Source: Thiobacillus sp. (GTDB lineage: Bacteria > Pseudomonadota > Gammaproteobacteria > Burkholderiales > Thiobacillaceae). From it: a stretch of DNA of 64,000 nucleotides. Where the stretch lies: NCBI GenBank assembly GCA_021166845.1, contig JAJPEP010000110.1, positions 1-64,000 on the forward strand, in the 5' to 3' direction. The notes below the pieces were generated by a model. That model had not been told where the DNA came from. It did not search any database and saw only the letters and a list, made by a program, of their open reading frames with translations. Both the position numbers and the translations under genes were made by a program. Below, piece after piece: positions 31,670 through 54,289 of the stretch (position 1 is the first letter of the stretch; each line of letters begins with the position of its first letter).

Positions 31670-31681
31670 GATGCGCCTCTC

Positions 31682-31981: not shown

Positions 31982-32004
31982 GGTTTTCTCCAGTCAATAA
32001 AGGG

Positions 32005-32293: not shown

Positions 32294-32310
32294 GGGGGTC
32301 TTCTGACGCG

Positions 32311-32529: not shown

Positions 32530-32552
32530 TGCTTTAACTCCTTGTGTGAAAA

Positions 32553-33608: not shown

Positions 33609-33690
33609 GATGGTCGGCTTTCGTTCTGGTCTTGCTGAGAAGACGAACGATGCGGCAAAAGGATGCAGGCTTGCTGAAAATAAATCGCCG

Positions 33691-35953: not shown

Positions 35954-35999
35954 GTGCATCTCCTTACGATGATGGCCGGGCCGCGGGGCCCGGCCGGTT

Positions 36000-37377: not shown

Positions 37378-37389
37378 TGATCGAAATCA
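37378..37389. promoter_or_regulatory. Possible FNR/CRP-type site upstream of the fadL-like gene
   Basis: TGATCGAAATCA is a perfect TGAT-N4-ATCA core, 73 bases upstream of the FadL-like start. It overlaps the final codon of the upstream crp-like gene, so chance occurrence is possible. It matches the core of the site before the porin (29057-29068). Confidence 0.35.
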
Positions 37390-38046: not shown

Positions 38047-38110
38047 GCAAGTTATGCGGAGTGGATATATAGGGGCGATTGTACGTCGCCGTATAGGTTG
38101 AAACCGCTTG

Positions 38111-38126
38111 AGGCGCAGAGGCGCAG
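38111..38126. repeat. Short tandem repeat in the crp to response-regulator spacer
   Basis: AGGCGCAG occurs twice in tandem (38111-38118, 38119-38126) in the 205-bp spacer 38047-38251. This GCAGAGGCGCAGAGG-like sequence is a common intergenic motif in bacteria. No gene is evident in this spacer; the response-regulator gene ends at its right border. Confidence 0.4.
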
Positions 38127-38251
38127 AGGAAAAACAACACCTTGCATGGTCGGTGCGTCCACCCGATGGGTGAAGGCTGGTTGACCGACAACCCATTGAT
38201 TCCCTGCCGTTCTCCGTACCTCCGTGGAGGGGTTTTAGCGTTAGGTTCAAT

Positions 38252-39576
<1,325 letters not shown>

Positions 39577-39580
<4 letters not shown>

Positions 39581-41025
39581 GATTCTTTCTGCAAGGGCAG
39601 GGTGACGGCGAAACGGGTTTCGCCGGGTTCGCTTTCCACCACGATGCCGCCGTTCAACTGGCGCGCGATCTGGTAGGTGACCCACAGGCCCAGACCATGG
39701 CCGTTGCGGCTCAAACGCGAAAAAGGTTCGAACAGGTAGGCCATGTCTTCATCCTCGATGTGGGTTCCATCGTTTTTCACCACCAGGGTGAAGCTGCGGC
39801 TGTCACGGTAAACCTGGCACTCGACCCGAGTGTTCGCGGCACGGATGGCATTGAGCAACAGATTGAGGAGAATTTGCCGCACCAGGGTGGACGGTAGCGG
39901 CAAGTCTTCTGCAATGTCGTTTTCCCATGTCAGTTCAAGCCCCTTTTCAGCCGCTTCCGCAGCCACCAGGGTGCGCGTGTCCTCGATGTCGCGGCGCGAC
40001 AGCGGGTGGTTCTCCACCTTGGTTTCCACCAGCAGGGCGGCGACCGTATCCTTGATCTGGGTCAGGCCGCGCTCCAGCAAAGCCAGCGTTTTCAGCGTGA
40101 GCGGGTCGTCCGATCCGTGCCGTTTGAAGGTGCTGATGGCGTTGAGCATGCCGCCCAGGGGGTTGTTGATCTCGTGGGCGATGCCGGCGGAAAGCCGCCC
40201 CACCGCCGCCAGCCGCTCGCTTGCCATGATCTCCTGTTCCAACTGTTCCTTTTCCTTGAGTTCGTTCAGCATGCGCTTGAAGGACGCCCCGGCTCGACCG
40301 ATTTCGTCATGCGATTCAAACAGGTCGCAATGCAGGTTTTCCGGCACGCTGGGCCCGATCTGGTCCATGCATCCTGCCAGTCGGACCAGCGGCCCAGCCA
40401 TGCGATGGCCCCAGTACCAGGCGACGGGAAGCAGCACCGCCAAGGCCAGCAGAGTCATCAGAGCGGCGCGCTGGGCGATGCCGACGAAGCGGGGGATGAA
40501 CAGACTCTTGGAAAAACCCATCACCAGGGTTCCCAGGCGTGTCCCTTCGGAAGTGATGGGAATGGTGACGAACAGCCTGCTGGAATCGGGTGGGTCAACG
40601 ACGCTGGGCTTCACATCGTTCCGGTCCGTCGCCAGATCGCTGATCGCGGCATATTCAGGATCAAGCCGCCCCGGATCGGACAGCATGGGGTACTGGGTGG
40701 GGCGGGTGGAAACATATACCTGGCCCCGGGTGTCCAGCACCAGGATGGTTTCCGCAATCCGGGTCTGGTCCTGGCTTCCCCCCTGGAAGGGCGAATTGAT
40801 GATTTCATACGCGCGCCAGACATCGTCATGGGTGATGGGGCCGACCAGGGTGTTGGCCAGTACCCGGCCCATGCTTTCGGCGTGACGCAGCAGGTCGTTG
40901 CGGGTTTCGTCATAGACCCGGAACAGGATGGAAGCCGTCACCAGAATGGCCGTGATGCTGGCGAGCATGAGCACCCGCAGGGGAATCTTGTAGCGCAGGC
41001 TGAGGTCGCGCAGGAAATGTTTCAT
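39577..41025 (-). CDS. Membrane sensor histidine kinase (AioS/ArxS-like)
   Basis: 482 residues. A membrane helix (about 15-36) and a second one around residues 187-206 flank a periplasmic domain of roughly 150 residues. A HAMP-like region, a helical stretch and a kinase core follow, with the H-box GIAHEINNPLGGML (His about 284), and an ATPase domain with LLLNAIRAAN and GHGLGLWVTYQIARQL. It overlaps the upstream binding-protein gene and the downstream regulator by four bases each, a three-component arrangement. Confidence 0.92.
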
Positions 41026-41882
41026 GGTCGGTTTGCCACGTCCTTAACCATGCGCGCGATGCCATCGAACAGCTTGCGCTCGCCCGGCGTGAAGCCGTCC
41101 AGATTGAGCTGGCGCAGTAATTTCCTTCCCTCATCGTTACCGCGCATATCAATCAGGGCTTGCCGCAGCGCCGCGAAATCGCCACCGGAAAGGGTGGCAC
41201 GGGCGACAAAGGGCGGAAAACCGAACTCGGGCGAGTGCGCCACGACCCGGGTTCTGGCCGTGAGTTGCGGATGGGAACGTTGCAGGGTTTCCCATACATA
41301 ACCGTCCACTGCGCCGCCCTGGGCCAGTTCGACGGCGACTGCGTCCACTACCTTGCGATGCGACCAGGTGTAGAACGTGCGCGAAAAGAAGGTCTCGGAA
41401 CGCTCCCTGAGCTGCGCCAGCGCAAACTGGGTATAGAGAAAACCGGAATTGGAATCAGGGTCGGAATAGGCGAAGACCTTGCCGCGCAGGTCGAGCAGGG
41501 ACTTGGTGGCCGTGTCGCCGGCAGGAACGATGAGATAGGAGCGGTACAGAGGCTTGCCATGGAACAGCGGCACGGCCAGAAGCCTGAGTCGCCGTTCGTG
41601 ACGCACGAACGGCGAACCGCACAGCCATGCCGCGTCGAGCTGGTCCTGGCTGAGCAGATCGACAATTTCGCGGTAGCTGCCGCGCTGCACGAAAACCACC
41701 GGCCGTTGCAGACGCTCGGTCAGGTAAACGCGCCAGGCCTCCAGGAAAGTGGACTGGTCGTCGAGAAAAACGGGGGTCAGGCCAATGCGCAGTGTAGGCC
41801 CCTCGCCGGCAAGCGCTGCCGCGAATGCGTGGGGGGCAAGCCCGCACAGGGCCAATGTTGCGCAAAACCGCCTTCTCGACAC
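41022..41882 (-). CDS. PhnD/AioX-type periplasmic substrate-binding sensor protein
   Basis: 286 residues. An N-terminal export signal with a twin-arginine-like SRRRFCATLALCG leads into a phosphate/phosphonate-binding-protein fold (LRIGLTPVFLDDQSTFLEAW, RGSYREIVDLLSQDQLDAAW, GSPFVRHER, FAYSDPDSNSGFLY). No ABC transporter genes are adjacent; instead it is fused in operon with a histidine kinase and a sigma-54 activator, as AioX is with AioSR in arsenite sensing. It probably binds an oxyanion and signals through the kinase. Confidence 0.88.
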   Translation of the reverse strand: MSRRRFCATLALCGLAPHAFAAALAGEGPTLRIGLTPVFLDDQSTFLEAWRVYLTERLQRPVVFVQRGSYREIVDLLSQDQLDAAWLCGSPFVRHERRLRLLAVPLFHGKPLYRSYLIVPAGDTATKSLLDLRGKVFAYSDPDSNSGFLYTQFALAQLRERSETFFSRTFYTWSHRKVVDAVAVELAQGGAVDGYVWETLQRSHPQLTARTRVVAHSPEFGFPPFVARATLSGGDFAALRQALIDMRGNDEGRKLLRQLNLDGFTPGERKLFDGIARMVKDVANRP

Positions 41883-42022: not shown

Positions 42023-42038
42023 TGGCATAGATGCTGCT
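42023..42038 (+). promoter_or_regulatory. Sigma-54 (-24/-12) promoter of the molybdoenzyme operon
   Basis: TGGCATAGATGCTGCT matches the sigma-54 consensus (TGGCAC-N5-TTGCW) with the invariant GG and GC separated by 10 bp. It points toward the FeS gene starting at 42144. The divergently encoded regulator carries the GAFTGA sigma-54 loop, which fits. Confidence 0.72.
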
Positions 42039-42143: not shown

Positions 42144-42851
42144 ATGAGCGAAACGCGCTTGTCTTCCAGCGAAACCCATGGCGTGCCCGGTAAAAAAAGG
42201 TACGCCATGGTGATCGACCTGCGCCGCTGCATCGGCTGCGATGCCTGCATGGTCGCGTGCAAGGCCGAATTCGACGTGCCACTCGGGGTTTTCAGAACCT
42301 GGGTGCCCTACAGGGTCGTGGGCACTTACCCCAATGTGCGCAAGCATTTCATGCCGCGCCTGTGCAACCACTGCGAAGACCCGCCCTGCGTGCGTGCCTG
42401 TCCGGTAGGCGCCACGTATGTCGTGGAAGACGGCGGCTTCGTGCTCCAGCGCTATGAACGCTGCATCGGCTGCAAGGCCTGCATGGCGTCCTGCCCCTAC
42501 AACGCCCGCTTCATGCTGCCCAAGAGCCGCACCTACACCGACATCACCAGCGTGGTGGACAAATGCACCTTCTGCCACCACCGGGTAACCCAGGGGCTCA
42601 CACCGGCCTGCGTGCAGACCTGCATCGGCCGGGCGCGTATTTTTGGCGACCTCAACGATCCCGCGAGCGAAGTGTCGCATCTGGTGTCCACCCTGCCGAC
42701 CCAGGTGCTGCGCCCCGAGGAAGGCACCAAGCCGCATGTGTTCTACATCGGCCTGGACCGCAATCTGTCGGAGCATGGCCGCACGATTTACGACCCGCCC
42801 GAGGTGCTGGAACAGGACCGTAAGGCCTTCAACAAGAACCATCAGGGATAG
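42144..42851 (+). CDS. Molybdoenzyme electron-transfer subunit, four [4Fe-4S] (DmsB/NrfC type)
   Basis: 235 residues with 16 cysteines in four groups: C29/32/35/39, C74/77/82/86, C107/110/113/117 and C141/144/156/160, enough for four [4Fe-4S] clusters. It has no export signal, so it would be carried across the membrane with the Tat-targeted catalytic subunit. It transfers electrons between the molybdopterin subunit and the NrfD anchor. A strong GGAGGAG lies about 10 bases upstream of ATG. It is first gene of the operon (B-C-A order), 106 bp from the sigma-54 promoter. Confidence 0.92.
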   Translation: MSETRLSSSETHGVPGKKRYAMVIDLRRCIGCDACMVACKAEFDVPLGVFRTWVPYRVVGTYPNVRKHFMPRLCNHCEDPPCVRACPVGATYVVEDGGFVLQRYERCIGCKACMASCPYNARFMLPKSRTYTDITSVVDKCTFCHHRVTQGLTPACVQTCIGRARIFGDLNDPASEVSHLVSTLPTQVLRPEEGTKPHVFYIGLDRNLSEHGRTIYDPPEVLEQDRKAFNKNHQG

Positions 42852-42860
42852 GAGCGAATC

Positions 42861-43718
42861 ATGGGTGACTTCAATATTTTCCATCACATGCCGTGGTCGA
42901 GTGCCTATTCGATCTACTTCTTCACCATCGGCATTTCGGCGGCGCTGTTCTTCATGTCCGCGCTGTCCTGGTATCGGGCGGAATTCAGGACCCTGCGTGC
43001 CAGCGCGTTCTATCTCTCGTTCGTGCTGCTGGCGGTGAGCGGTTTGCTGCTGATCGGCGACTTGTCGAAACCGGCCCGTTTCCTGAACATCCTGAATCCG
43101 GCCTACCTCAACTTCGCCTCGCCGCTGGCCTGGGGCGGTCTCAACCTGATCGCGTTCGGCGCGGTGTCGGTGGCCTATTTCTTCATGATGCGCAAGAACG
43201 ACGATGGGATGAGCCGCAAGCTGGCTGTCGTGGGTTCGCTGCTGGCCTTGGGACTGCCGATCTACACCGGCTTCGACCTTACCGTGCATCAGAACCGACC
43301 GGTATGGAACACGCCGCTGATGCCCATCCTGTTTGTCGCCCTGTCGCTGGTATCGGGTGCGGCGGTGGCGTCTTTCCTGGCAGGGGCGAACGAAAAACTG
43401 CTCGTCATGCTGCGCCGCTTCATGTTGTGGTCGGCTGCGGCAGTGGGCGTGATGCTGATCTCGATGCTCGGCACCACGGCCTACGGCGGCACCGGCGAGG
43501 AGCTGACCTTCATGTTCATGACCAGCGGCACGCTCGGCATGATTTTTATCGGCATCGGCATCCTGCTCGGCACCGCCGCGCCCATCCTGCTCCTGCTCGC
43601 GCCCTTCGGACGCCAGCAGGGCGGCGTGATGCTCGCTGCCCTGCTGCTGCTGGTGGGCGGAATGGCGTTGCGCTATTCCATCCTGGTCGGCGGCCAGATC
43701 GTGCAGACCTATTTCTGA
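42861..43718 (+). CDS. NrfD/PsrC-type quinol-interacting membrane anchor
   Basis: 285 residues with about eight membrane helices, starting MGDFNIFHHMPWSSAYSIYF. Helices are visible around FYLSFVLLAVSGLLLIGDLS, LNLIAFGAVSVAYFFMM, FVALSLVSGAAVASFLAG and ILLGTAAPILLLLAPFG. The acidic and basic residues near the first helices (GDLSKPAR) are as in NrfD proteins that exchange electrons with quinones. It sits between the FeS and catalytic subunit genes with 9 and 19 bp spacers. Confidence 0.92.
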   Translation: MGDFNIFHHMPWSSAYSIYFFTIGISAALFFMSALSWYRAEFRTLRASAFYLSFVLLAVSGLLLIGDLSKPARFLNILNPAYLNFASPLAWGGLNLIAFGAVSVAYFFMMRKNDDGMSRKLAVVGSLLALGLPIYTGFDLTVHQNRPVWNTPLMPILFVALSLVSGAAVASFLAGANEKLLVMLRRFMLWSAAAVGVMLISMLGTTAYGGTGEELTFMFMTSGTLGMIFIGIGILLGTAAPILLLLAPFGRQQGGVMLAALLLLVGGMALRYSILVGGQIVQTYF

Positions 43719-43737
43719 ATATCGGGGAGACCGGAAC

Positions 43738-46386
43738 ATGGACATGTTGAATTTCAAGATTTCACGGCGCACCTTCCTCCAGGCAAGCGCCGCGACCACG
43801 GCCGCTGCCGCGGCTTCACCCAGGCTGCTCAGGGCAATGGAAACGGAACTGGGCGGCAGGGATTTCAACCCGGTGAATTTCGCCGAACGCAAGGCGATTC
43901 CCATTACCTGCCACGTCTGCAACATCCAGGACGGCGCCATGGCTTACGTGGAGAACGGCCGCATCGTCAAGCTGGAGGGCAACCCGGAGCACGTCTCCAC
44001 GCGCGGCCGACTGTGCGCCAAGGGCAACTCCGGCATGTGGTACACCTATGATCCGGACCGCATCCTTTATCCCCTGAAGCGCGTCGGTGCGCGCGGCGAG
44101 GGCAAGTGGAAGCGCATCACCTGGGACGAGGCGCTGACGGAAATCGCGCAGAAGCTGGATGCGGCGCTCAAGGAAGATCCCAACACCATCATGCTGAAAT
44201 ACGGCCGCAACCGGACCGGCGGCGTGATCGACCGTTTCATGAATACCCTGGGATCGGCCACGGTGGTCAACCACACCGCGGTGTGCGAATCGTCGAAGAA
44301 AATAGGCATGGAGCCGACCTGGGGGCCGGATATCGAGACGCCGGATTTCGCCAACGCCAAGTACATCCTCAACTTCGGCTCCAACATCATGGAAGCGGCC
44401 TACTTCCATAACCCCTATTCGCAGCGGCTCGCCGACGGCATGGCCGACAACAAGGCCAAGCTGGTGACGTTCGACGTGCGCCTGTCCAATACCGCCGGGC
44501 GTTCGGATGAGTGGATCCCGGTGTTCCCCGGCACCGATGGGGCGGTGGCGCTGGCCCTCGGTCACGTCATCCTGCGCGACGACCTGCAGGACAGTGATTT
44601 CATCGAAACCTGGACCAACGTCACGGTGGCGGAGCTGAAGGCGCATTACCAGCAGTTCACGCCGGAATGGGCTTCCGCACTGTCCGGCGTGCCGGTGGCG
44701 ACGATCGAGCGCATCGCGCACGAGTTCGCCACCACCAAGCCGGCGACGACCTACACCTACCGCGGCCCGGCCAAGCACCTGTATGGCTCCTACAACGAGA
44801 AGGCCACCATGATGCTGCCCATCATGACCGGCAACATCGAGACCCGCGGCGGCTACTGCATGCCGCGCGGCATGGGCTGGCCGCAGCCCCAGCCGGAACC
44901 GCCCAAGCCGGCCAAGCCGTCCTATCTGTCCCATCCGAGCGAATATCCGCTGGCTGGGCACAAGGTCAGCCACCTGACGCCGTTCTGGATCGCCGAGGGC
45001 AAGCAGAAGATCAACGTCTACTTCACCTACCAGGACAACCCGGTGTACACCAACCCCGGCTCGGACGCGGTGTGGGGCAAGCTGTTCCGCGACGAGAAGC
45101 TGATTCCGTTCTATGTTTCCATGAGCCCCTTCATGGGCGAGGAAACCGCGCTGGCCGACATCATCCTGCCTGACTGTCCTTACCTGGAGCGCTGGGAGCC
45201 GGAATCCATGCCCAATTCGCTGTGGCCATGGCTGGGGATTCGCCAACCAGTGATCAAGCCGCTGGGCGAGTCGCGCGAAAACCGCATCATCATGCGCGAC
45301 ATCATCCACAAGCTGGATCCGGACGGCAGCCGTGGCATGAAGCAGTACTGGAACTTCAAGGACGGCGAGGACTATATGCGCCAGCATTTCGACAACGTGC
45401 CGGGGCTGAAGGAAGCCGGCGGCCTGGATTTCCTCAAGAAGCACGGGGTATGGCCAATTTACGGCAAGCTCGACCCGGCCACCGGCAAGATCGTGGACAA
45501 GACCGGGCGCGAGATCCAGCCGGAATACGGCCTGCACAAGAAGGAATTGTCGTCCGCCGACATGACCGGCGCCGTGGTGGGGAAGGGCGGAACCATCATG
45601 AAAAACGGCAAGGCCATCGGCGTCCAGCGCAAGGGCAGGAACTACGCCGGCTTCCCGACCGGCAACCGCCTCATCAACGTGCGCGTGGACGAGTGGGCCG
45701 ATTTTGGCTTCAATCCCATGCCCACCTTCAAGCAGATCCCCTGGCACAAGGAGATGAAGGACGACGAGATGATCCTCACCACCTACAAGATCAACGTGCA
45801 CAAGCAGTCGCGCACCGCGGCGGTGAAATGGCTGGCGGAGATCATGCACAGCAACCCGGTGTGGATGAACACCGAGACCGGCAAAAAGCTGGGGGTCAAG
45901 ACCGGCGATCTGGTGCGGGTGGAAAGCAAAGTCGGCCATCTGGTGACCAAGGCTTATGTGTTCGAGGGCATTCATCCCAAGGTGGTGGCCATCCCGACGG
46001 CATTCGGCCACTGGGCCTACGGCAGGCTGGCCCAGCTCAAGCTGAAGAGCGAGAAGGCTGGCGCCTGGGGCGCGCAGGACGATCCCGACCTGAACAACGT
46101 GTGGTGGGAAGACAAGGGCGTTCACCCCAATCAGATCATCCCGGTGGTGGCCGATCCCATCGGCGGCTCTCAGGGCTGGTACGACACGGTGGTCAAGGTG
46201 ACCAAGGCCGGTCCGAACGACAAGTACGGCGACGTCAAGGCATCATGGGAGAAACACGTGGAAGCCTTCAAGGAAACCATGCGCTACGCCTACACCGGTG
46301 ACCTGCACCGCACGATGCACCCCGAAATGGCGGCCTGGGGCGGGCCGGAAAGCGTCAAGCACAAGGAGGGCGGAGGCGGCCATTGA
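43738..46386 (+). CDS. Tat-exported molybdopterin oxidoreductase catalytic subunit with CCDC FeS motif
   Basis: 882 residues, DMSO-reductase (CISM) superfamily. Tat signal SRRTFLQA is at residues 9-16. The N-terminal FeS motif is C58-X2-C61-X3-D65-X27-C93: spacing is canonical but the third cysteine is aspartate. The likely molybdenum ligand is Cys183 (NHTAVCESSKK), which points to the PsrA/PhsA/ArrA/SrdA side of the family, not the Asp- or Ser-ligated enzymes. The C-terminal domain binds the second pterin (VVAIPTAFGHWAYGR). Gene order FeS-anchor-catalytic recalls, from memory, selenate reductase srdBCA of Bacillus. The substrate is not determinable from sequence; sulfur, selenium or arsenic oxyanions are candidates. 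Confidence 0.88.
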   Translation: MDMLNFKISRRTFLQASAATTAAAAASPRLLRAMETELGGRDFNPVNFAERKAIPITCHVCNIQDGAMAYVENGRIVKLEGNPEHVSTRGRLCAKGNSGMWYTYDPDRILYPLKRVGARGEGKWKRITWDEALTEIAQKLDAALKEDPNTIMLKYGRNRTGGVIDRFMNTLGSATVVNHTAVCESSKKIGMEPTWGPDIETPDFANAKYILNFGSNIMEAAYFHNPYSQRLADGMADNKAKLVTFDVRLSNTAGRSDEWIPVFPGTDGAVALALGHVILRDDLQDSDFIETWTNVTVAELKAHYQQFTPEWASALSGVPVATIERIAHEFATTKPATTYTYRGPAKHLYGSYNEKATMMLPIMTGNIETRGGYCMPRGMGWPQPQPEPPKPAKPSYLSHPSEYPLAGHKVSHLTPFWIAEGKQKINVYFTYQDNPVYTNPGSDAVWGKLFRDEKLIPFYVSMSPFMGEETALADIILPDCPYLERWEPESMPNSLWPWLGIRQPVIKPLGESRENRIIMRDIIHKLDPDGSRGMKQYWNFKDGEDYMRQHFDNVPGLKEAGGLDFLKKHGVWPIYGKLDPATGKIVDKTGREIQPEYGLHKKELSSADMTGAVVGKGGTIMKNGKAIGVQRKGRNYAGFPTGNRLINVRVDEWADFGFNPMPTFKQIPWHKEMKDDEMILTTYKINVHKQSRTAAVKWLAEIMHSNPVWMNTETGKKLGVKTGDLVRVESKVGHLVTKAYVFEGIHPKVVAIPTAFGHWAYGRLAQLKLKSEKAGAWGAQDDPDLNNVWWEDKGVHPNQIIPVVADPIGGSQGWYDTVVKVTKAGPNDKYGDVKASWEKHVEAFKETMRYAYTGDLHRTMHPEMAAWGGPESVKHKEGGGGH

Positions 46387-46410
46387 TCCATACCTGAGCA
46401 AGTGCAGTGC

Positions 46411-46452
46411 CCCGGTCATGAAGTCCTTCCCTTCTTCATGACCGGGTTTTTT
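46411..46452 (+). terminator. Rho-independent terminator within the molybdoenzyme operon
   Basis: CCCGGTCATGAAG (46411-46423) and CTTCATGACCGGG (46434-46446) form a perfect 13-bp stem with a 10-base loop, followed by six T. It lies between the catalytic gene and the TorD-like gene. It should reduce transcription of the downstream accessory genes relative to the structural ones. Confidence 0.92.
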
Positions 46453-46464
46453 GAGAGGATTGCC

Positions 46465-47232
46465 ATGCAGAATCAGAATGCAGTTTCAGTTGACCCCATG
46501 AAAGATAGCCCCCCTCTGGAATTGCGTGCCCGCGCCGGGCACTACCAGTTGCTGGCTGGCGCTTTCGTCGAAGAGCCGGGGGGCGATTATCTGGCAGCCC
46601 TGCGCGCGCCGGAAGCGCTGGCCGAGCTGGGTCTGGCGTTCGACGCGGATGTGACCGACATCCCCCTGGACCAGCTTCAGGAGGTTCTGGCGTGCGAATA
46701 CGCCACCCTTTTCACCACCTCCGGCGGCTGCCCGCCGGTGGAGTCGTCGCGCCTCACCGGGCGTTTCCAGCAGGAGCCCTTTCACGATGTGAAGGCCATA
46801 TATCAGCGTTGTGGCTTCGCGCTGCAACAGGGTAAATTTGCCGTATTCGAGGACCAGCTCGGGGTCGAACTATCCTTCGTTGCGGTGCTGCTGGAAAACC
46901 AGGCGGCCGCACTGGAACACGGCGACATGGCAGCGGCCAGGCAACTGGAAAAGGAAATCAAGCGCTTCTGGGCTACCCACCTCGGCCGCTGGGTGCGCGG
47001 CTACGCGACGCTGCTGGAGCGGGTGACGGAGCATTCCTTCTACCGTGAAATCGCCCGCCTGTTGCGTGATTTTTCCGAGGCCGAACTGGCCCTGCTGAAG
47101 GTGGGGGTCGACGATGCGGACGGCGGTCGGGAAGTGGTGCCGAAAACTGAAATCGATGTGTTGTTCAATCCCGACGAACCTGTATGCGGCGGCTGCGACC
47201 ATGGCAGGCAAGAGAACAGGGTTGTCGCATGA
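46465..47232 (+). CDS. TorD/DmsD-family molybdoenzyme maturation chaperone
   Basis: 255 residues, mostly helical. The TorD-type core is visible as LRARAGHYQLLAGAFVEEPG, the LACEYATLFTTSGGCPPVES acidic-aromatic motif (compare EYxxLF) and the later DQLGVELSFVAVLL. Such chaperones guard the Tat signal and help insert the molybdenum cofactor. A Cys-containing C-terminal tail (VCGGCDHG) is unusual. It starts after the terminator with a GAGAGGAT ribosome binding site, and its stop overlaps the next gene by four bases. Confidence 0.87.
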   Translation: MQNQNAVSVDPMKDSPPLELRARAGHYQLLAGAFVEEPGGDYLAALRAPEALAELGLAFDADVTDIPLDQLQEVLACEYATLFTTSGGCPPVESSRLTGRFQQEPFHDVKAIYQRCGFALQQGKFAVFEDQLGVELSFVAVLLENQAAALEHGDMAAARQLEKEIKRFWATHLGRWVRGYATLLERVTEHSFYREIARLLRDFSEAELALLKVGVDDADGGREVVPKTEIDVLFNPDEPVCGGCDHGRQENRVVA

Positions 47233-47630
47233 ATCATGAATTCGCCTGGGACGAGCTGGAACTATTGTGGAACGCCAATAACTTCGGCGCGGTCCACGAC
47301 TGGCTGGGCGAACGCTGGAATCACCTGATCCAGTCCCGGCCGGACGGGCACGAAGATCCGGATGCCCGGTTCCTGCAGGGGCTGGCGTTCGCAGCGCTGG
47401 CTTTCCATTTCACCCAGAACCACAATCAGGACGGTGCGGCACTGCTTGCCGATGACGCCCTGACCCTGTTGCCGCAATTTGTTCCGGCGTATCGCGGGGT
47501 GGCGCTCGGCCCCGTCCTGGAAACGCTCAATACCTTGAGGCCGTTGCTGGCTGGATTGGACCACGAGGCGGACTGTCCCCTGCAGCCTTTTGTTTTCAGG
47601 AAGTTCGAATGCCGGATGATGAACCGATGA
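47229..47630 (+). CDS. Conserved-looking hypothetical protein (133 aa), DUF309-like
   Basis: 133 residues, helical, cytoplasmic. ELLWNANNFGAVHDWLGERW and ARFLQGLAFAALAFHFTQNH recall the DUF309 pattern (helix-rich, with FLQGL motif), but the assignment is weak. ATGA overlaps tie it to the TorD-like gene upstream and the next gene downstream, so it is part of the molybdoenzyme accessory set. It could serve in maturation. Confidence 0.65.
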   Translation: MNHEFAWDELELLWNANNFGAVHDWLGERWNHLIQSRPDGHEDPDARFLQGLAFAALAFHFTQNHNQDGAALLADDALTLLPQFVPAYRGVALGPVLETLNTLRPLLAGLDHEADCPLQPFVFRKFECRMMNR

Positions 47631-48319
47631 CGCACGCCATACCGGAAATCGTCCTGCGCCGCTGGGCCGAGCCAGAAGATGGCCCCTTTGCCGAGCCTGT
47701 TTTTCTGTTTGACAGCGACGACCTGCCCGAGGAACTGTCCCACGTTTCCGTGGTGCTTCGCACTGCCGGCCGGGAACGTGCCCGCGAATTGCTGGCACGG
47801 GGCGCGGAGCGCGTGCTGCCAGGCGAGGCAGCCTTGCTTGACGGCAGTCTGGTCGAGGCGCTGAGCCTGGAATTCGGCAACGAGCGAGTGGGGGTATGGG
47901 TTCCAGCGCGGCGCCTGGAGGTTAGCTGGACGCTGGACCTGCATTCCAATGCCGATTTTCGCTGCGTGACGCCCTCCTGCGCCAAACCGGCGTGGGAAGT
48001 GTTGAAAAGCGATGGCAGTCGTAGCGGCGCCGATGCCGGCTGGTGGTTGGGGCAAATGCTGGCGCGCGGCGCTTCGCTGGCGCTGCTCGGGGCGGACATC
48101 GCCGACGACACCGACCTCAACCTGTGCGCCGAGTTGGTGGAGCAGTCTGGCGCCTGTCTATGGCTGACGCCGTTGGCGAATCCGGAGGCGGACCTGCTTC
48201 CATGGATTCAATTTGGCCAGGCCAGAAACCTGGTCATTCCCAATAGCGAACATTACGATGAAGCAGCGATGTTGGCCCTGTGTCAGGCACTGGAACCTGC
48301 GATGGAGGTCGTGGCATGA
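47627..48319 (+). CDS. Hypothetical protein of the molybdoenzyme operon (230 aa)
   Basis: 230 residues, soluble, no signal. The N-terminal half is strand-rich (EIVLRRWAEPEDGP, EPVFLFDSDDLPEE) and the C-terminal half has Rossmann-like alternation (GASLALLGADIADDTDLNLC, GACLWLTPLANPEADLLPW). Three cysteines are spread through the second half. No family recognised. ATG at 47627 overlaps the preceding stop as ATGA; an ATG at 47609 is less economical. It is coupled to the rhodanese-like gene by another ATGA. Confidence 0.65.
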   Translation: MTHAIPEIVLRRWAEPEDGPFAEPVFLFDSDDLPEELSHVSVVLRTAGRERARELLARGAERVLPGEAALLDGSLVEALSLEFGNERVGVWVPARRLEVSWTLDLHSNADFRCVTPSCAKPAWEVLKSDGSRSGADAGWWLGQMLARGASLALLGADIADDTDLNLCAELVEQSGACLWLTPLANPEADLLPWIQFGQARNLVIPNSEHYDEAAMLALCQALEPAMEVVA

Positions 48320-48768
48320 ACGGGCTGGGAAGATTCGTGATTGTCCTGGCATGTGTCGTGTCGGCGCCGGCGTGGGCCGCCCGGGCAGAGCTGCTGGACG
48401 GCCCCCAGCTTGCGGAAGTGCTGAAAAAGGGCCAGCCCTGCTGCATCATCGATGCGCGTGAGGAGGGGCGGCGCAAACAGCAGCCGATTCCTTTCGCCGT
48501 GACCTACAAGGAAGGCGTCAAACCCAAGCCGGGTGGATTCGCAGTGGTGGTGGGCAACAACGACCGGCAGGCGCTGGAAGTTGCACAAGTCATTGTCAAA
48601 AGCAGCGGGCAGGACGTGTTCGCCGTGAAAGGCGGGTACGCCATATTGAAGCAGGTGCGGTCGGGTGGCGAGGCATCCTCGGCCGGGCCGGAAATCCTCA
48701 TGCCGCAGAACTTCACCATCCCCAGCAATACCTGCGAGCAGGGGCAGGCTTTGCATGAATACAAGTAA
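48316..48768 (+). CDS. Periplasmic rhodanese-like protein lacking the active-site cysteine loop
   Basis: 150 residues with signal peptide MNGLGRFVIVLACVVSAPAW (cut after AWA). The rhodanese fold is suggested by CCIIDAREEGRRKQQPIPFA and VFAVKGGYAILKQ. The loop where a rhodanese would have CxxGxR reads VVVGNNDRQA, so no catalytic cysteine is there; other cysteines are in GQPCCIID and SNTCEQG. It could bind a sulfur or selenium species without being a standard sulfurtransferase. It is within the operon, 3 bp before the ferredoxin gene. Confidence 0.7.
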   Translation: MNGLGRFVIVLACVVSAPAWAARAELLDGPQLAEVLKKGQPCCIIDAREEGRRKQQPIPFAVTYKEGVKPKPGGFAVVVGNNDRQALEVAQVIVKSSGQDVFAVKGGYAILKQVRSGGEASSAGPEILMPQNFTIPSNTCEQGQALHEYK

Positions 48769-48771
48769 TCG

Positions 48772-49863
48772 ATGCTGACCCAGCCGGAATACCGCGCCAG
48801 CCGCTGCACCCGTTTTCGCTACCGCTACAGCGGGTGCAGCCGCTGTGCCGACGCCTGTCCTCACGAAGCGGTGGAACTGGGTGACGAGGGCATCAAAATC
48901 AGCGTTACGGCGTGCCGGAATTGCGCGCTGTGCGCCGCCGCCTGCCCCACCGAAGCGCTGCTGGCGGACAACCTGCCGCGTATCGAGGTGCTGAAGCGCG
49001 CCGCCACGCGGCCCGAAGTCACTTTCGCCTGCGCACCTTCCGAATCCAGGGGGGACGAGATCGTCCCCTGCCTGGGCGCCCTGGACGCGGCGATGCTGGC
49101 CTATCTCGCTAGCCGCGGCATCGCGGTCACGCTGGCCGGCACGCAGCATTGCGCAGAATGTGCCCATGGTGCGCGCGGGGAAGCGATGCTGGGCCTCAAC
49201 CTGGAAGCGGCCGAAAGCCTGCGACACGTTGCCGGTAACGACAAGTGGGCCGAAATAGCCGTGCCTGACGAAAGCGAAGCCGAACCGGACAAGGGCGGAC
49301 ACAATGCCTCCCGCCGCCACCTGTTCCGCCGCTTCGTCGGCCGCGGCGCCGACCAGTTGTCGCGCCCGGTTTCAGCAAGCGAGGCCTCTCCTGTTCCCCT
49401 CAAGGCGATCCGCTTCGCCGCGCCGTTTTCCACCGCCGGACGGGAATTGCTGCAAATCCTGTTCAATACGCCACGGGAACCCCCCACACCCTTGCCCGTC
49501 CATGCCGCCCTGCTCGCCGCACAGGTCGGCATCCGGCCCGGTTGCACCGCCTGCGAGGCCTGTGCCCGCGCCTGTCCCACCGGCGCGATGCAGATCAGGG
49601 AGAGTGCCACGGCCTGGCAATTGGGGTTCGCATTCACGCGCTGCGTCGGCTGCGGCGTATGCGTCGAGGTGTGCCAGCCCAATGTGCCGTATTTCAAGGA
49701 CGAGATGGAAAACCTTGCCAAGTCGCCAGAACCGGTGATCCTGCATGCCTTGGGCAAACAGCGATGCACCCGCTGCGACCGCTTTTTCATCTCCCCCGCG
49801 CCGGAGGAAATCTGCCCGATCTGCGAGGGGGATGACGCAGATTTTACTTCGCTGTTCGGATAG
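48772..49863 (+). CDS. Multi-cluster ferredoxin-type protein
   Basis: 363 residues without a signal. Two [4Fe-4S] motifs near the N-terminus (CSRCADACPHE with an earlier Cys12; CRNCALCAAACPTE) and two in the C-terminal third (CTACEACARACPTG; CVGCGVCVEVCQP) are separated by a Cys-containing domain that looks like a degraded oxidoreductase segment (QHCAECAHG). The C-terminus has paired CTRC and CPIC, likely a zinc or rubredoxin-like knuckle. It probably donates electrons for cofactor maturation or reduction in the cytoplasm. Confidence 0.8.
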   Translation: MLTQPEYRASRCTRFRYRYSGCSRCADACPHEAVELGDEGIKISVTACRNCALCAAACPTEALLADNLPRIEVLKRAATRPEVTFACAPSESRGDEIVPCLGALDAAMLAYLASRGIAVTLAGTQHCAECAHGARGEAMLGLNLEAAESLRHVAGNDKWAEIAVPDESEAEPDKGGHNASRRHLFRRFVGRGADQLSRPVSASEASPVPLKAIRFAAPFSTAGRELLQILFNTPREPPTPLPVHAALLAAQVGIRPGCTACEACARACPTGAMQIRESATAWQLGFAFTRCVGCGVCVEVCQPNVPYFKDEMENLAKSPEPVILHALGKQRCTRCDRFFISPAPEEICPICEGDDADFTSLFG

Positions 49864-49883
49864 CCATCTGGAAGGAAACAAGC

Positions 49884-50264
49884 ATGGAATGGGAATTCAC
49901 ACCGCAGCAAGTGGTGAAGGGCGAAATCGATTATGGTCTGGACGCATTCCGGCATGACTTGATGCAGGAAGTGGCGTTGAACATACCGGGCCTTGGCAAT
50001 GAACAACTGGAGCCCCTTTTTCGTCTGGCATACGATCTCTGCTACTGGCTTGCCACGGGCAAGGACTATGACGAGTTCGAGGAACGTTTCCAGGATATCA
50101 ATACCGTGATGTTCCTGCGCGCCTTGAGGGAGCACGGCAAGGCCAATGTGGAAATGCTGGGCGCCATCCTGCAGCGGATGATCATGGACGGGGTGGAAGA
50201 AGGGCTTTCTGTGGAGGACGCGGTGGCGCAAGTGGCATGGCATCAGGAGCAGTCAGCATCTTGA
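49884..50264 (+). CDS. Hypothetical protein at the end of the molybdoenzyme operon (126 aa)
   Basis: 126 residues, acidic and mostly helical, starting MEWEFTPQQVVKGEIDYGLD, with RLAYDLCYWLATGKDYDEFE in the middle. No signal peptide or membrane segment. Family not recognised. It follows the ferredoxin gene after 20 bp with GGAAGGAAAC-like sequence as ribosome binding site, and is the last plus-strand gene before the convergent selO. Confidence 0.6.
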   Translation: MEWEFTPQQVVKGEIDYGLDAFRHDLMQEVALNIPGLGNEQLEPLFRLAYDLCYWLATGKDYDEFEERFQDINTVMFLRALREHGKANVEMLGAILQRMIMDGVEEGLSVEDAVAQVAWHQEQSAS

Positions 50265-50361: not shown

Positions 50362-51825
50362 TCACGAGGAGCAGCTTATCTCGATCCGCTTTGCCCAGTC
50401 AGGCGGCTCGGCGGCGTAGGGCTCGTATTCCGGCTGTTCGTCGAACGGATGCGTCAGCAGCGCGTGCAGGCGATTGATCTCGCTGTAATCGCGCTCGTCT
50501 GTCGCCCGGCGGATGGCGATTTCGGCCAGATGGTTGCGCAGGATGTATTTGGGATTGACCGCGCGCATCGCCTTGCTGCGTTCAGCGTCGAGGGAGCCCT
50601 GCTGGCGCAGCGCAGCGGCGTAGCGCGCCGCCCAGGCATCGAAGGCCGCGCGGTCGAGGAAGAGGTCGCGCAGCGTGTTGTGCGAATTTTCCCCATTGTC
50701 GAAGTCGCACAGGCGGCGCAGGAAGATCGTGTAGTCGACATGGTTCTGCGCCAAGAGCTGCAGCGCGTCCATCGCGAGCGAGGCCGTTTCGCTGCCCGGC
50801 GGCAGGCCGAACTTGGCGGCCATGCGTTCGAGGTAGGCGCGGCCGAACGCCTGCGGATACTCGCTGATCGCGCCGGATGCGGCTTCCACCGACATCAGCG
50901 GCACCAGCGTCTGGGCCAGCTTGGTGAGGTTCCAGGCCGCGACGTCGGGCTGCTGGTCGAAGGCGTAGCGCCCGCTGGTGTCGGAATGGTTGCAGACATA
51001 GCCGGGGTCGAAGGCGTCGAGAAAGCCGAACGGGCCATAGTCGAGCGTGAGGCCGAGGATGGACATGTTGTCGGTATTCATCACCCCGTGCGAGAAGCCC
51101 ACCGCCTGCCACTGCGCCATCAGCTCGGCGGTGCGCAGTGCGACCTGGCGCAGGAACTCGGGGTAGGGATCGGCCAGCGCCGTCAGCTCGGGGTAGTAGC
51201 GCGCGATGACGTAATCGGCCAGGTGCTTGATCGACTCGATCTGGTTGCGGTAGTAGAACACCTCGAACGAACCGAAGCGCACGAAGCTGGGCGCCAGCCT
51301 GGTGACCAGCGCGGCGGTCTCCTGATCCTCGCGGTAGACCGGGCGGTCGCTGCCGACGATGGCGAGGGCGCGGGTGGTCGGAATGCCGAGCGCATGCATC
51401 GCTTCGGAACACAGAAACTCGCGGATGCTCGAGCGCAGCACCGCGCGGCCGTCGCCGCCGCGCGAGTAGGGGGTGCGGCCGGCGCCCTTCAGCTGCACTT
51501 CCCAGCCTTGGCCCGCCGCATTCCTCACTTCGCCCAGCAGGATCGCGCGGCCGTCGCCCAACTGCGGCACGTAATGGCCGAACTGGTGCCCGGCGTACAG
51601 CGCGGCGATCGCGTCCATGCCCGGCAGCAGCTGGTTGCCGGCCAGCGTCTCGATCAGTTCGGGGCGGGTGATTTCGCGATCGTCGAGGTCGAGCAGCGCC
51701 AGCGCTTGCGGGCTGTAGCAGACCAGATAGGGGTCGGGAACGGGGGTCGGGCAGACGCGCGAGTAATAGGCTTCCGGCAGGCGGGCGAAGCCGTTGTCGA
51801 AGGTGAGCGATTCAAGGCTGGACAT
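50362..51825 (-). CDS. selO: Protein adenylyltransferase SelO (YdiU)
   Basis: 487-residue pseudokinase-fold enzyme that AMPylates proteins in redox stress response. It shows the family N-terminus (FARLPEAYYSRVCPTPVPDP), GHQFGHYVPQLGDGRA, and SHGVMNTDNMSILGLTLDYG with the metal-binding Asn/Asp. The C-terminus ends in EISCSS, a cysteine at the position of selenocysteine in eukaryotic SelO, so this is not a selenoprotein. It is the only gene convergent with the molybdoenzyme operon. Confidence 0.95.
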   Translation of the reverse strand: MSSLESLTFDNGFARLPEAYYSRVCPTPVPDPYLVCYSPQALALLDLDDREITRPELIETLAGNQLLPGMDAIAALYAGHQFGHYVPQLGDGRAILLGEVRNAAGQGWEVQLKGAGRTPYSRGGDGRAVLRSSIREFLCSEAMHALGIPTTRALAIVGSDRPVYREDQETAALVTRLAPSFVRFGSFEVFYYRNQIESIKHLADYVIARYYPELTALADPYPEFLRQVALRTAELMAQWQAVGFSHGVMNTDNMSILGLTLDYGPFGFLDAFDPGYVCNHSDTSGRYAFDQQPDVAAWNLTKLAQTLVPLMSVEAASGAISEYPQAFGRAYLERMAAKFGLPPGSETASLAMDALQLLAQNHVDYTIFLRRLCDFDNGENSHNTLRDLFLDRAAFDAWAARYAAALRQQGSLDAERSKAMRAVNPKYILRNHLAEIAIRRATDERDYSEINRLHALLTHPFDEQPEYEPYAAEPPDWAKRIEISCSS

Positions 51826-51880
51826 GGATCGATTTTAAGGCCGCGCAAGCCTTGCGCGACCCGTGCGGCGGCAGGGGTAA

Positions 51881-52020
51881 TGGCCGCTTCCAACGATAAC
51901 GATGCAGCTGGATAGCGAACCCGTCGTGTTCCCCTTCGCCGGCCAGTTGCCAACCGGCGCTGTTCGCAAACGCGCTGAATTCGTCGCGGCGGAACTTGCA
52001 GGAATGCGCACTCAGGGCCC
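51881..52020 (-). pseudogene. Remnant resembling the C-terminus of histidine methyltransferase EgtD
   Basis: In a frame different from selD and starting inside its last codons, the minus strand reads ALSAHSCKFRRDEFSAFANS, then AGWQLAGEGEHDGFAIQLH. This resembles the end of EgtD-type L-histidine methyltransferases (SCKFR..., then an alpha-helix, then FxLxL). No start codon or N-terminal domain is present. If correct, a hercynine synthase gene once lay next to selD and was largely deleted. The similarity is short and from memory. Confidence 0.4.
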
Positions 52021-53082
52021 GATTGAAACCTGGCTGCCGGCATCCAGCCGGCCGATTTCTGTCGCTTGGTCAAAGCCGTGCCGGTGGAAAATTTCCAGCA
52101 CGGCTTCCCTTGATCCGGGCGCGCAACTCACCAAGAGGCCGCCGCTGGTTTGCGGATCGGTCAGGAGGGCGCGCTGCCAGTCGGCGATGCCCTCGGCCAG
52201 GCGCACTTCGCCGCCGTAGCTCGCCCAGTTGCGCTCGCTGGCGCCGGTGATATGGCCGTTTTGCGCCAACTCGCCCACGCCCGGAAAGAGGGGCAGGCGC
52301 GCCAATTCAACGCGCGCCGCCAGCGCCGACGCGCGGGTGATTTCAAGCAGGTGGCCGAGCAGGCCGAAGCCGGTGATGTCGGTCATCGCGTGCACGCCGT
52401 CGATTGCGGCCAGGTCGGCGCCCGCGGTGTTGAGCTGGGTGGTGGCTTTGATCATCGCCGTGTACTGGTCGGCGCTCAGCAGGTCTTTTTTCAGCGCCGC
52501 GCTGTAGATGCCGACGCCCAGCGGCTTGCCGAGGATGAGGTGGTCGCCGGCGCGGCCGCCTGAATTCTGCTTGACCTTGCGCGGATTCACCACGCCGATG
52601 CCGACCAGGCCGTAGATCGGCTCCGGCGCGTCGATGGAATGGCCGCCGGCGATGGGAATCCCGGCCTGCTTGCATACAGCCTCGCCGCCGGCGAGGATCT
52701 GCCGGATGACCTCGTTGGGCAGCTTGCCGATCGGCATGCCGACGATGGCCAGGGCGAACAGCGGCCGCCCGCCCATGGCATAGACGTCGGACAGTGCATT
52801 GGTGGCGGCGATGCGGCCGAACTCGTAGGGGTCGTCGACGATAGGCATGAAGAAGTCGGTGGTCGCCACGATCGCCTGCTCGTCGTTCAGCCGGTAGACG
52901 GCGGCGTCGTCGCCGTGCTCGATGCCGACCAGGAGGTCGGGATAGGCCGCCGCCAGATGCGATGCGAAGGGCGTGTCGGACAGGATGTCGCGCAACACCG
53001 AAGGCGCGATCTTGCAGCCGCAGCCGCCGCCGTGGGAAAACTGGGTCAGGCGGATGGGAGGTGTGAGAAGGGTATCGTTCAT
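52012..53082 (-). CDS. selD: Selenide, water dikinase SelD (SenC-like context)
   Basis: 356-residue enzyme making selenophosphate from selenide and ATP. The glycine-rich active loop HGGGCGCK has Cys21, Cys23 and Lys24, and EHGDDAAVYRL, ATTDFFMPIVDDPYEFGRIA and AGGHSIDAPEPIYGL follow, all typical. ATG at 53082. It is divergent from an EgtB-like gene, as SelD homologues (SenC) are neighbours of senA in selenoneine clusters. It could also serve selenouridine or selenocysteine synthesis; selA, selB and mnmH are not in the window. Confidence 0.94.
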   Translation of the reverse strand: MNDTLLTPPIRLTQFSHGGGCGCKIAPSVLRDILSDTPFASHLAAAYPDLLVGIEHGDDAAVYRLNDEQAIVATTDFFMPIVDDPYEFGRIAATNALSDVYAMGGRPLFALAIVGMPIGKLPNEVIRQILAGGEAVCKQAGIPIAGGHSIDAPEPIYGLVGIGVVNPRKVKQNSGGRAGDHLILGKPLGVGIYSAALKKDLLSADQYTAMIKATTQLNTAGADLAAIDGVHAMTDITGFGLLGHLLEITRASALAARVELARLPLFPGVGELAQNGHITGASERNWASYGGEVRLAEGIADWQRALLTDPQTSGGLLVSCAPGSREAVLEIFHRHGFDQATEIGRLDAGSQVSIGP

Positions 53083-53131
53083 AATCAGAATTCGTTGAGA
53101 GGTGGGTGCCCGGAATGGTAGTTTATATAGC

Positions 53132-54289
53132 ATGAACCGAACCCGACCCGTCAGTGCTTGCACCGCGGACCAGCTCATCGGCCGGCTGGCGCAGGCGCGC
53201 GGCCGCCTGCGCGCGCTGATCGACTGCCTGCCGGCCGGCGGCCTGCTGGGGCCGCGCGCCGAACACCTGAACCCGCCGCTGTGGGAATACGGGCACATCG
53301 TCTGGTTCCAGGAACGCTGGTGCCTGCGCGCGCGGCCCGATGGCGGTTTTGCGGCCAGTCTGCTGGCCGGCGCCGATGCCTTGTACGACTCCTCCAGCGT
53401 AGCGCACGACACGCGCTGGGATTTGCCCTTGCCGGAACCCGCGGCGGTCGACGACTACGCGGCCGGAGTGGCCGAAGCCGTGGCCGCCCGCCTGCGCAAC
53501 GCATTCACCCATGAACTGGCGTATTTCGCCGAGCTGAGCCTGTATCACGAGCTGATGCACATCGAGGCCTGGTGGATGGCTTTCCAGAATCTGGGCTATG
53601 CGCCGCCGGGGCGGCCCGATGCGGCCGCTTTGCCGCGCGGTCGGCGGCTGGCGTTTGCCGCGGGCGAGGTTGTGCTGGGCAGCGGTGCGGACGAAGGGTT
53701 CATTTTCGACAACGAAAAATGGCGCCACACGGTGGCGGTTCCGGCATTCGACATCGACGCGAGTCCAGTGTCCGAGGCGGCCTTCGCCGAATTCGTCGAT
53801 GCGGGCGGCTACCAGCGCAGGGACGAATGGTCGGACGAGGGATGGGCCTGGCGCGAGGCCTCGGGCGCCCGCCATCCGCTTTACTGGCGGCAGCTAAACG
53901 GCGATTGGCAGGCGCGCCGCTTCGACCGCTGGATGCCGCTGAGTGCGGATGCGCCCATGCTGCATGTGAACCGTTACGAGGCCGAGGCCTGTGCCGCCTG
54001 GATGGGCAGGCGTCTGCCCACGGCTGCGCAGTGGCTGCGCGCGGCGGCACGGCCGGAATTTCAACGGGGCATGGGCTGGGACTGGCTGCGCGACGCCTTC
54101 GCGCCGTATCCGGGGTTTTCGCCCGATCCCTACCAGGAGTATTCCCGGCCCTGGTTCCACACGCATGCGGAATTGCGCGGCGGCGGGCCGGTCACCGATC
54201 CGGCTCTCAAACGTCCCGGCTTCCGCAATTTCTATCTGCCGCACCGGCGCGATCCGTTCGCGGGGTTCCGCACCGTCGGTCCGGGTTAG
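53132..54289 (+). CDS. EgtB/SenA-like sulfoxide- or selenoneine-type synthase
   Basis: 385 residues with DinB_2 domain (about 1-165) then formylglycine-generating-enzyme-type domain. The iron-binding histidine motif is HELMHIEAW, with EYGHIVWFQERW near the N-terminus. The FGE domain has NRYEAEACAAWMGRRLP and GFRNFYLPHRRDPFAGFRT. EgtB homologues join hercynine to a sulfur or selenium donor. The 49-bp divergent arrangement with selD makes the selenoneine enzyme SenA the leading guess, but no SenB glycosyltransferase is present, so an ergothioneine-type role is possible. Confidence 0.7.
   Translation: MNRTRPVSACTADQLIGRLAQARGRLRALIDCLPAGGLLGPRAEHLNPPLWEYGHIVWFQERWCLRARPDGGFAASLLAGADALYDSSSVAHDTRWDLPLPEPAAVDDYAAGVAEAVAARLRNAFTHELAYFAELSLYHELMHIEAWWMAFQNLGYAPPGRPDAAALPRGRRLAFAAGEVVLGSGADEGFIFDNEKWRHTVAVPAFDIDASPVSEAAFAEFVDAGGYQRRDEWSDEGWAWREASGARHPLYWRQLNGDWQARRFDRWMPLSADAPMLHVNRYEAEACAAWMGRRLPTAAQWLRAAARPEFQRGMGWDWLRDAFAPYPGFSPDPYQEYSRPWFHTHAELRGGGPVTDPALKRPGFRNFYLPHRRDPFAGFRTVGPG

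Follow-up and report, generated by a model that had tools for sequence, protein, structure and literature searches.

The window analysed here, a 64,000-nucleotide stretch of a Thiobacillus sp. genome (contig JAJPEP010000110.1, positions 1 to 64,000), carries an operon for an exported molybdopterin oxidoreductase together with a divergently oriented regulatory module. Judged by sequence, the enzyme represents a new MopB clade whose regulatory and accessory genes are Arx-like, and we lean toward the view that it is an arsenite-responsive, quinone-linked periplasmic arsenic molybdoenzyme whose clade is separate from Aio, Arx and Arr. Arsenic is the best-supported substrate class because an AioX-type sensor, kinase and regulator module (X-S-R) stands beside the operon, the operon encodes an ArxB2-like ferredoxin, and arx operons and ars genes neighbor its copies. 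Predicted control of the operon by arsenite is well supported, and we strongly infer arsenic to be the substrate. The best reading of these features is a third type of arsenic molybdoenzyme, in addition to Aio and Arx/Arr, probably acting on an As(III) species, whose oxidation with a quinone acceptor would be the most economical reaction for this architecture. Such an enzyme would probably give bacteria a novel means of using or detoxifying arsenic. A preliminary description of the window placed the operon at 42144–50264 and found its gene combination unlike those of arsenite, selenate, tetrathionate or polysulfide enzymes. That range holds for the operon, and the clade is indeed distinct; the regulatory genes at 38252–41882, which are decisive for the interpretation, lie outside the range, and the arsenic link was missed. 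Literature searches returned no description of this operon among the matches listed.

The AioX-type sensor module and its genomic company

The regulatory module consists of open reading frames on the minus strand for a periplasmic AioX/ArxX-type sensor protein (X; 41022–41882), a sensor histidine kinase of the AioS/ArxS type (S; 39577–41025) and a sigma-54-dependent response regulator of the AioR/ArxR type (R; 38252–39685). Homologues of the kinase and the regulator occur in many loci, and those of Azoarcus sp. KH32C are annotated as a sensor histidine kinase and a sigma-54 dependent regulator. The X protein matches AioX best in the PDB (210 bits, E 4e-61), followed by ArrX (120 bits) and the phosphite-binding PtxB (44 bits), and is 51% identical to Sulfuricella ArxX. 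In the part of the literature available to us, AioX, ArxX and ArrX are each described as binding the substrate of their cognate enzyme, and the arsenite pocket of AioX is given as Tyr88, Cys106, Tyr131, Ser161, Ser163, His192 and Asp210, with a hydrophobic loop at 56–57 that ArrX lacks (PMC5908839). All nine residues (V56, F57, Y88, C106, Y131, S161, S163, H192 and D210) are those of AioX in 28 of 28 complete operon-linked X copies, made up of 18 plus 10 further distinct ones; an incomplete copy (L027) agrees at its eight covered sites. Among six arx-linked X copies, three keep the whole set and three have Ala56 and Thr163. It is on these matches and pocket residues that we predict the X protein to bind arsenite.

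A second line of evidence lies in the promoter region. A sigma-54 -24/-12 promoter-like site, TGGCATAGATGCTGC, occupies 42023–42037 on the plus strand, carries 8 of 10 consensus bases and stands 121 bases upstream of the start of the first operon gene, which encodes the iron-sulfur (FeS) subunit. Sites resembling TGGCAC-N5-TTGC with at least 8 of 10 bases are found in 30 of 33 upstream regions, compared with 5.4% of mononucleotide shuffles, a count in which the loci are related to each other and two rows are one gene. In 23 of the 30 the site falls 109–123 bases upstream of the FeS match start. Such a site fits a regulator of the sigma-54 type. The response regulator gene is itself adjoined by a gene for a Crp/FNR-type regulator with cyclic nucleotide-binding and helix-turn-helix domains (37387–38250, minus strand).

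A fundamental question is how specific this sensor type is for arsenic enzymes. Within the window's order, 300 evenly sampled genomes contain 39 X places, spread over 32 genomes. Of these places, 8 lie at this operon, 10 at arxA, 8 at aioA, 4 at other molybdoenzymes and 9 at none that was found. Seen from the enzymes, X adjoins this operon in all eight genomes with a close copy and arxA in 10 of the 11 ArxA genomes. The AioX-type sensor is thus mostly, not exclusively, a companion of arsenite oxidases. Three further contexts of the module deserve mention in their own right. In L125 (G045) and L136 (G161), at ~2250–11550, X-S-R is divergent from a TtrA-like molybdoenzyme (35% identical to TtrA) with an FeS gene; the X proteins there are 64–70% identical to Sulfuricella ArxX, which makes this enzyme another candidate arsenic enzyme. 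In L128 (G145; 2662–11622) the module stands by a distant TtrA-like enzyme (27%) and an FeS gene, along with a polyferredoxin 29% identical to that of the present operon. In L126 (G088; 4881–12994) it stands by an ArrA-like enzyme (27%) and an ArxB-like gene. Finally, Ser replaces Cys106 in five of the nine X copies for which no nearby molybdoenzyme was found (L127, L129, L132, L133 and L135, each with X-S-R), and these are perhaps sensors of other ligands.

The X-type modules beside TtrA-like enzymes bring up another possibility, namely that the sensor is promiscuous and the enzyme handles a different metalloid oxyanion such as antimony, selenium or tellurium, which we consider improbable. 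Open reading frames that we presume, from their sequence, to be SelO-like and SelD-like lie directly 3' of the operon (50362–53412, minus strand) and would suit a selenium substrate. No homologue of selO or selD was found in the other loci searched, in stretches of up to 22.6 kb, and the selenium reading was set aside.

The link to arsenic extends to the polyferredoxin of the operon (48772–49863, plus strand), which has C-terminal Cys pairs and which a single pairwise comparison identifies as a homologue of ArxB2 (26% identity over most of both lengths, E 5e-16). The ArxB2 gene appears specific to arx clusters in the portion of PMC6549141 available.

ArxA (matches 57–92% identical to ArxA of the Sulfuricella plasmid pSCD) is present in 9 of 36 genomes or records with the operon, a set that includes one duplicate genome, one plasmid record and many incomplete bins, compared with 11 of 300 in the order (Fisher p 5e-5). 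With shared members of the order sample removed, the counts are 6 of 28 versus 8 of 293 (p 5e-4). Within the order sample, leaving out the window's genome, ArxA occurs in three of seven operon genomes (hypergeometric p 0.0012; by genus 0.042, two of the three belonging to one genus). On five contigs (in G020, G150, G182, G302 and G320) ArxA lies ~9–16 kb from the catalytic gene; G322, with arx on C56, is counted among the nine genomes and left out of this same-contig tally. By tblastn, G320 has arxB2-A-B-C-D homologues with an X-S pair, and G302 has X-S-R with arxB2-A-B-C-D homologues on a contig that also carries aioA and an arsR-C-D-A-ACR3 set. Moreover, ars genes flank the operon in L029, L031, L033, L052 and L065, or 5 of the 34 loci searched (29 plus 5); ACR3 and ArsM of L029 both exceed their NCBIfam cut-offs, and the ACR3 range of L065 contains one stop codon in the coordinates used. 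The operon also occurs in G148, a genome in one contig at 92% completeness with no ArxA or AioA match at the thresholds used. Plasmid pAZKH of Azoarcus sp. KH32C, which bears the operon, gave no match to either oxidase. The window's own genome, 86% complete, likewise yielded neither, and it carries ACR3 on a different contig.

Several observations weigh against an arsenic enzyme under arsenite control. Four of the 39 X places lie beside TtrA-like (two at 35%, one at 27%) or ArrA-like (27%) enzymes, and at nine no molybdoenzyme was found within ~8 kb by the queries used. Two X copies without such a neighbor, L130 and L137, nevertheless keep all nine pocket residues. Because X occurs beside other enzymes or none, and because of the full pockets of L130 and L137, a sensor of this type, even with its pocket intact, is no proof of what the enzyme acts on. 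No X-S-R homologue was found in the 22.6 kb of L031, despite its ars genes, nor in the short upstream stretches of L046 and L037. ArxA was not found in 27 of the 36 genomes or records and AioA in 32 of the 36, many of them incomplete bins; the ars flanking count of 5 in 34 stands without a background rate; and the queries used detected no ars gene in the window. Shared ancestry accounts for part of the arx co-presence, G020 and G150 being of one genus, and hitch-hiking within arsenic islands could also produce it. Lastly, the nearest sister clades of the catalytic subunit (30–42% identity) showed no X homologue, and some of their genes adjoin the sulfur genes TauE, TusA or DsrE.

Catalytic subunit, family assignment and the aspartate at the third ligand

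The catalytic subunit (43738–46386, plus strand; 882 residues) belongs to the MopB (DMSO reductase) superfamily, with the Pfam families Molybdopterin (PF00384), Molydop_binding (PF01568) and Molybdop_Fe4S4 (PF04879) above cut-off, and it bears a twin-arginine translocation (Tat) signal (PF10518). Its N-terminal cluster motif reads C58-X2-C61-X3-D65-X27-C93, with an Asp in the third ligand place. The usual, though not universal, motif among FeS-bearing MopB enzymes has four Cys; here Asp stands in every covered row of the clade. The preliminary description had drawn attention to this Asp within canonical spacing, and it is borne out by the ligand codons (TGC58, TGC61, GAC65 and TGC93, with TGC183 for the later Cys) and by alignment. 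Asp occupies the position in 34 of 34 rows spanning the site, that is, the window and 33 close homologues, with L047 and L051 left out for want of the region and L011 and L040 being one gene. In a wider alignment it is found in 16 of 16 clade rows and in none of the 35 rows outside the clade, where the residue is Cys in 34 and Thr in one, L022. This last row is a molybdoenzyme (G045:C75:13573-15144) with the motif CQMCGGTTG. A change from Cys (TGC/TGT) to Asp (GAC/GAT) takes two base changes, and because of this and the agreement of the homologues a sequencing error behind Asp65 is very unlikely and was set aside. By analogy, an Asp ligand could yield a 3Fe cluster or an Asp-ligated 4Fe cluster, for which ferredoxins and the 3Fe cluster of Aio are precedents.

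At the active site, Cys183 aligns with the corresponding Cys of the PDB structures of ArrA and PsrA. It had been proposed earlier as the probable molybdenum (Mo) ligand, and the alignment agrees with this; the ligand role itself is one that we assume from knowledge of the family. The ArrA and ArxA rows of the wider alignment also carry Arg and His at the places of Arg157 and His179. Lys188 aligns with an ArrA Lys and was not used as proof of an arsenic site, since it is absent from ArxA rows and the Lys of some sisters is off by one. The catalytic-site roles of the ArrA residues at these three places are ones that we presume; a literature search on them brought up no paper. One hypothesis is that the enzyme runs in the opposite direction, as an arsenate reductase, with Arg157 and His179 in the positions of their ArrA counterparts; equivalents of this pair are, however, common to a whole wider clade of 26 rows. 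The enzyme also scores only 187 bits against the ArrA model NF041714 (cut-off 1600), and the sensor keeps the V56/F57 loop of arsenite-binding AioX, absent from arsenate-binding ArrX in the available part of PMC5908839, all of which makes this direction highly unlikely. An AlphaFold model of the catalytic subunit from a 16-row alignment reached a mean confidence (pLDDT) of 49 and was dropped.

To place the family, a 50-row maximum-likelihood tree was built in which TtrA is one row and named SrdA, SrrA, SoeA and antimonate reductase references are absent. The rows with Asp form a clade (100/100) nested in the 26-row clade (100/100) with three sister groups, namely the Thermomicrobium, Rhodococcus RHA1 and Natrinema plasmid enzymes; L095 and L096; and L017–L020 with L093. 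ArxA and ArrA form a separate 100/100 clade, in which the nine ArxA-clade rows are a 100/100 group of their own with ArrA as sister, and PhsA and PsrA form another (99/98). The tree program warned that long branches meet, including that joining the ArxA/ArrA group to the wider clade, which leaves the deep order unsettled. The phylogeny that the preliminary description had proposed as a check therefore gives a distinct clade outside ArrA/ArxA and PsrA/PhsA, with SrdA and SoeA unplaced and TtrA represented by one row. Curated cut-offs point the same way, as none of those shown for PhsA, DmsA, ArrA, TtrA and AioA is passed: the best NCBIfam model, PhsA NF012032, gives 357 bits (cut-off 694), ArrA NF041714 186.6 (1600), AioA TIGR02693 34.7 (359) and TtrA NF011567 129.9 (1750). 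SoeA is described as cytoplasmic and without a Tat signal in the accessible portion of PMC6620896, and differs in this from the catalytic subunit with its PF10518 match.

The top matches nonetheless give room to a further alternative, in which a polysulfide, thiosulfate or other sulfur oxidoreductase has simply come under an arsenite-responsive regulator, for instance so that the sulfide it provides would precipitate arsenic. PsrA (2vpw) is the best PDB match of the catalytic subunit, with 201 bits compared with 178 for ArrA; PhsA is the top NCBIfam model, below its cut-off; and sulfur genes lie near some sister-clade genes. We regard this alternative as doubtful, given that the catalytic subunit falls outside the PhsA/PsrA clade and that arx and ars genes make up the neighborhood. 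A GR pair before the Mo ligand, common to the clade and to the ArrA and ArxA rows and absent from the PhsA rows and PsrA, argues in the same direction; the pair is also found in two unrelated rows, L094 and L097, and is a weak point.

Accessory genes, distribution and proposed mechanism

The remaining genes of the operon, all on the plus strand, agree with the list given in the preliminary description, which had listed FeS, NrfD, catalytic and TorD-like subunits, three further proteins, a rhodanese-like protein and a ferredoxin. Preceding the catalytic gene are an FeS electron-transfer subunit of the PsrB/TtrB type (42144–42851) and an NrfD/PsrC-type membrane anchor with a presumed quinone site (42861–43718; PF03916, 102 bits). 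Following it are a TorD/NarJ-type assembly chaperone (46462–47232; PF02613, 67 bits), a DUF309-like protein starting at the ATG that gives MNHEF (47229–47630; PF03745, 27.5 bits, cut-off 27), a protein modelled as a HisF/HisA-like TIM barrel (47609–48319), an exported rhodanese-like protein (48316–48768; PF00581 weak at E 0.07, below cut-off) and, beyond the polyferredoxin, a conserved 126-residue protein (49884–50264) present in 22 of the 25 loci given. The DUF309-like and rhodanese-like genes are present in all 25. As had been remarked earlier, the rhodanese-like protein lacks the usual loop Cys, judged by eye; its C-terminal IPxNTCExG stretch, by contrast, carries one Cys in all 26 rows. 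A PDB search with this protein gave nothing usable.

A scan of genome contigs found 28 loci at 74–96% identity, mostly in metagenome bins named Gallionella, Sulfuricella, Sulfuritalea, Sideroxydans and Thiobacillus, with one Bradyrhizobium. Two named strains, Herbaspirillum sp. ST 5-3 and Hydrogenophilus thiooxidans SS56, are among these loci. A further copy lies on plasmid pAZKH of Azoarcus sp. KH32C, and the gene order is largely retained on the plasmid and on the other, mostly proteobacterial, contigs. The gene-set search suggested in the preliminary description thus finds that the Asp clade keeps the accessory genes. Close copies (at least 79%) occur in 8 of the 300 genomes of the order, the window's own included; the sample's eight other members of the window's family, one of them of the same genus, have none. 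Because of this patchy spread and the plasmid copy, the sequences point to horizontal transfer of the operon. The viral contigs searched yielded no relative.

Various neighboring genes were noted. The window has, at 31010–34224 (minus strand), a sigma-70-type factor (33694–34224), a PF03773 permease and a YgaP-like membrane protein, with a small Cys-rich thioredoxin-like frame and a Crp-like frame seen by eye; L038 has a similar permease and sigma-factor pair near the operon. The permease (32553–33608) was not used as an arsenic gene, being SaoE-like only below cut-off. A 496-residue frame at 34562–36052 (minus strand) shows CxxCH heme motifs by eye and had no Pfam or NCBIfam match at the thresholds used. 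Gram-negative porin genes flank the operon in L030 (2657–3700), L031 (17000–18082) and L043 (18022–19098), and the window has one at 27713–28981. A chemotaxis receptor gene adjoins it in L026 (17683–19701) and L042 (17182–19347), as one does in an arsenic island of Agrobacterium GW4 in the available part of PMC5335332.

How might such an operon work? We hypothesize six steps. Arsenite would bind the AioX-type protein at the Cys106 equivalent (step 1), upon which the kinase and the sigma-54 activator would turn the operon on from the -24/-12 site (step 2). The TorD-type chaperone would aid cofactor loading, and Tat would export the catalytic and FeS pair (step 3). The Mo center with its Cys183 ligand would then oxidize an As(III) species, either arsenite itself or perhaps a thio-arsenic one, which Arg157 and His179 may bind (step 4), and electrons would pass via the N-terminal cluster, with Asp65 as a likely ligand, to the FeS subunit, NrfD and quinone (step 5). 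The rhodanese-like Cys protein, the ArxB2-like ferredoxin and the barrel protein may serve sulfur handling or maturation (step 6). The sequence supplies the parts for steps 1–3 and 5; that these parts act in this way, which substrate is used, which way the reaction runs and step 6 as a whole are what we infer from it.

The frequent co-occurrence of ArxA with the operon and the presence of sulfur genes near some sister-clade genes weigh against plain arsenite oxidation and leaves a thioarsenic substrate open. An alternative hypothesis is therefore that the enzyme is active on thioarsenate, cleaving or forming the As-S bond (monothioarsenate to and from arsenite plus sulfide) in the manner of thiosulfate reductase. 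The rhodanese-like Cys protein would serve as sulfur carrier, and arsenite would be the signal as co-product or precursor. Several host names are those of sulfur oxidizers, the rhodanese-like gene and its tail Cys are kept throughout the loci and rows given above, and the nine ArxA co-occurrences in 36 suggest a task beyond plain arsenite oxidation. In the available part of PMC6620896, a Soe-like enzyme is suggested to oxidize thioarsenate in Thioalkalivibrio. Set against these points, no direct link to any As-S compound was found, the rhodanese-like protein has lost its usual loop Cys, and the Thermomicrobium sister has no annotated sulfur gene alongside, such that we hold this hypothesis only tentatively. 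With similar reserve, the enzyme may represent a third energy-conserving arsenic molybdoenzyme family on As-S species, under arsenite-sensor control and with an Asp-ligated cluster tuning electron transfer; if so, no enzyme would, as far as our searches show, have been assigned to dissimilatory thioarsenic chemistry before it.

Whichever As(III) species the favored arsenic molybdoenzyme may use, surveys of arsenic redox commonly rely on aio, arx and arr markers. An additional marker, found in groups whose groundwater and sediment bins include the names of iron and sulfur oxidizers, would alter counts of arsenic-active organisms and may account for arsenic conversion in strains without known oxidases. 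In addition, the invariant Asp is a natural test of a non-Cys ligand tuning the first cluster of these enzymes.

Comparison with known molybdoenzyme systems

With Aio the operon shares the AioX-type sensor and the sigma-54 activator, whereas its catalytic subunit reaches just 35 of the 359 bits demanded by the AioA model. We know of no Aio system with an NrfD-type architecture. PsrA and PhsA offer the best single PDB and NCBIfam matches and the same subunit architecture, but they belong to a separate clade and have Cys at the third ligand place. The sister molybdoenzymes are united with the Asp clade in the 26-row group, and L106 and L107, the contexts of L095 and L096, include FeS and TorD-like genes. 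In contrast to the present operon, the sisters have Cys at the third ligand; the stretches of L053–L055, L058–L060, L066 and L106–L108 hold no X homologue, and no DUF309-like, barrel, rhodanese-like or small-protein gene was found there. On a Sulfurovum mangrovi plasmid (L105; 2964–10017), a frame-broken, unannotated relative of the catalytic gene, with four Cys in its motif, lies between FeS/NrfD and TorD/polyferredoxin-like genes, a comparable arrangement in Campylobacterota.

The closest likeness is to the Arx operon (arxXSR-B2ABCD), as found on plasmid pSCD of Sulfuricella denitrificans (L056). The catalytic subunit matches ArxA only in parts, at 24–30%, and falls outside the ArxA clade; the chaperones give no significant match to each other; and the present operon has Asp at the third ligand, the order B-C-A and four extra genes. 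Both systems nonetheless have a divergent X-S-R module, here with a predicted arsenite pocket and an X protein about half identical to ArxX, an ArxB2-type polyferredoxin, and an FeS subunit, NrfD anchor, Tat-exported molybdoenzyme and TorD-type chaperone, and in five genomes ArxA shares a contig with the present operon.

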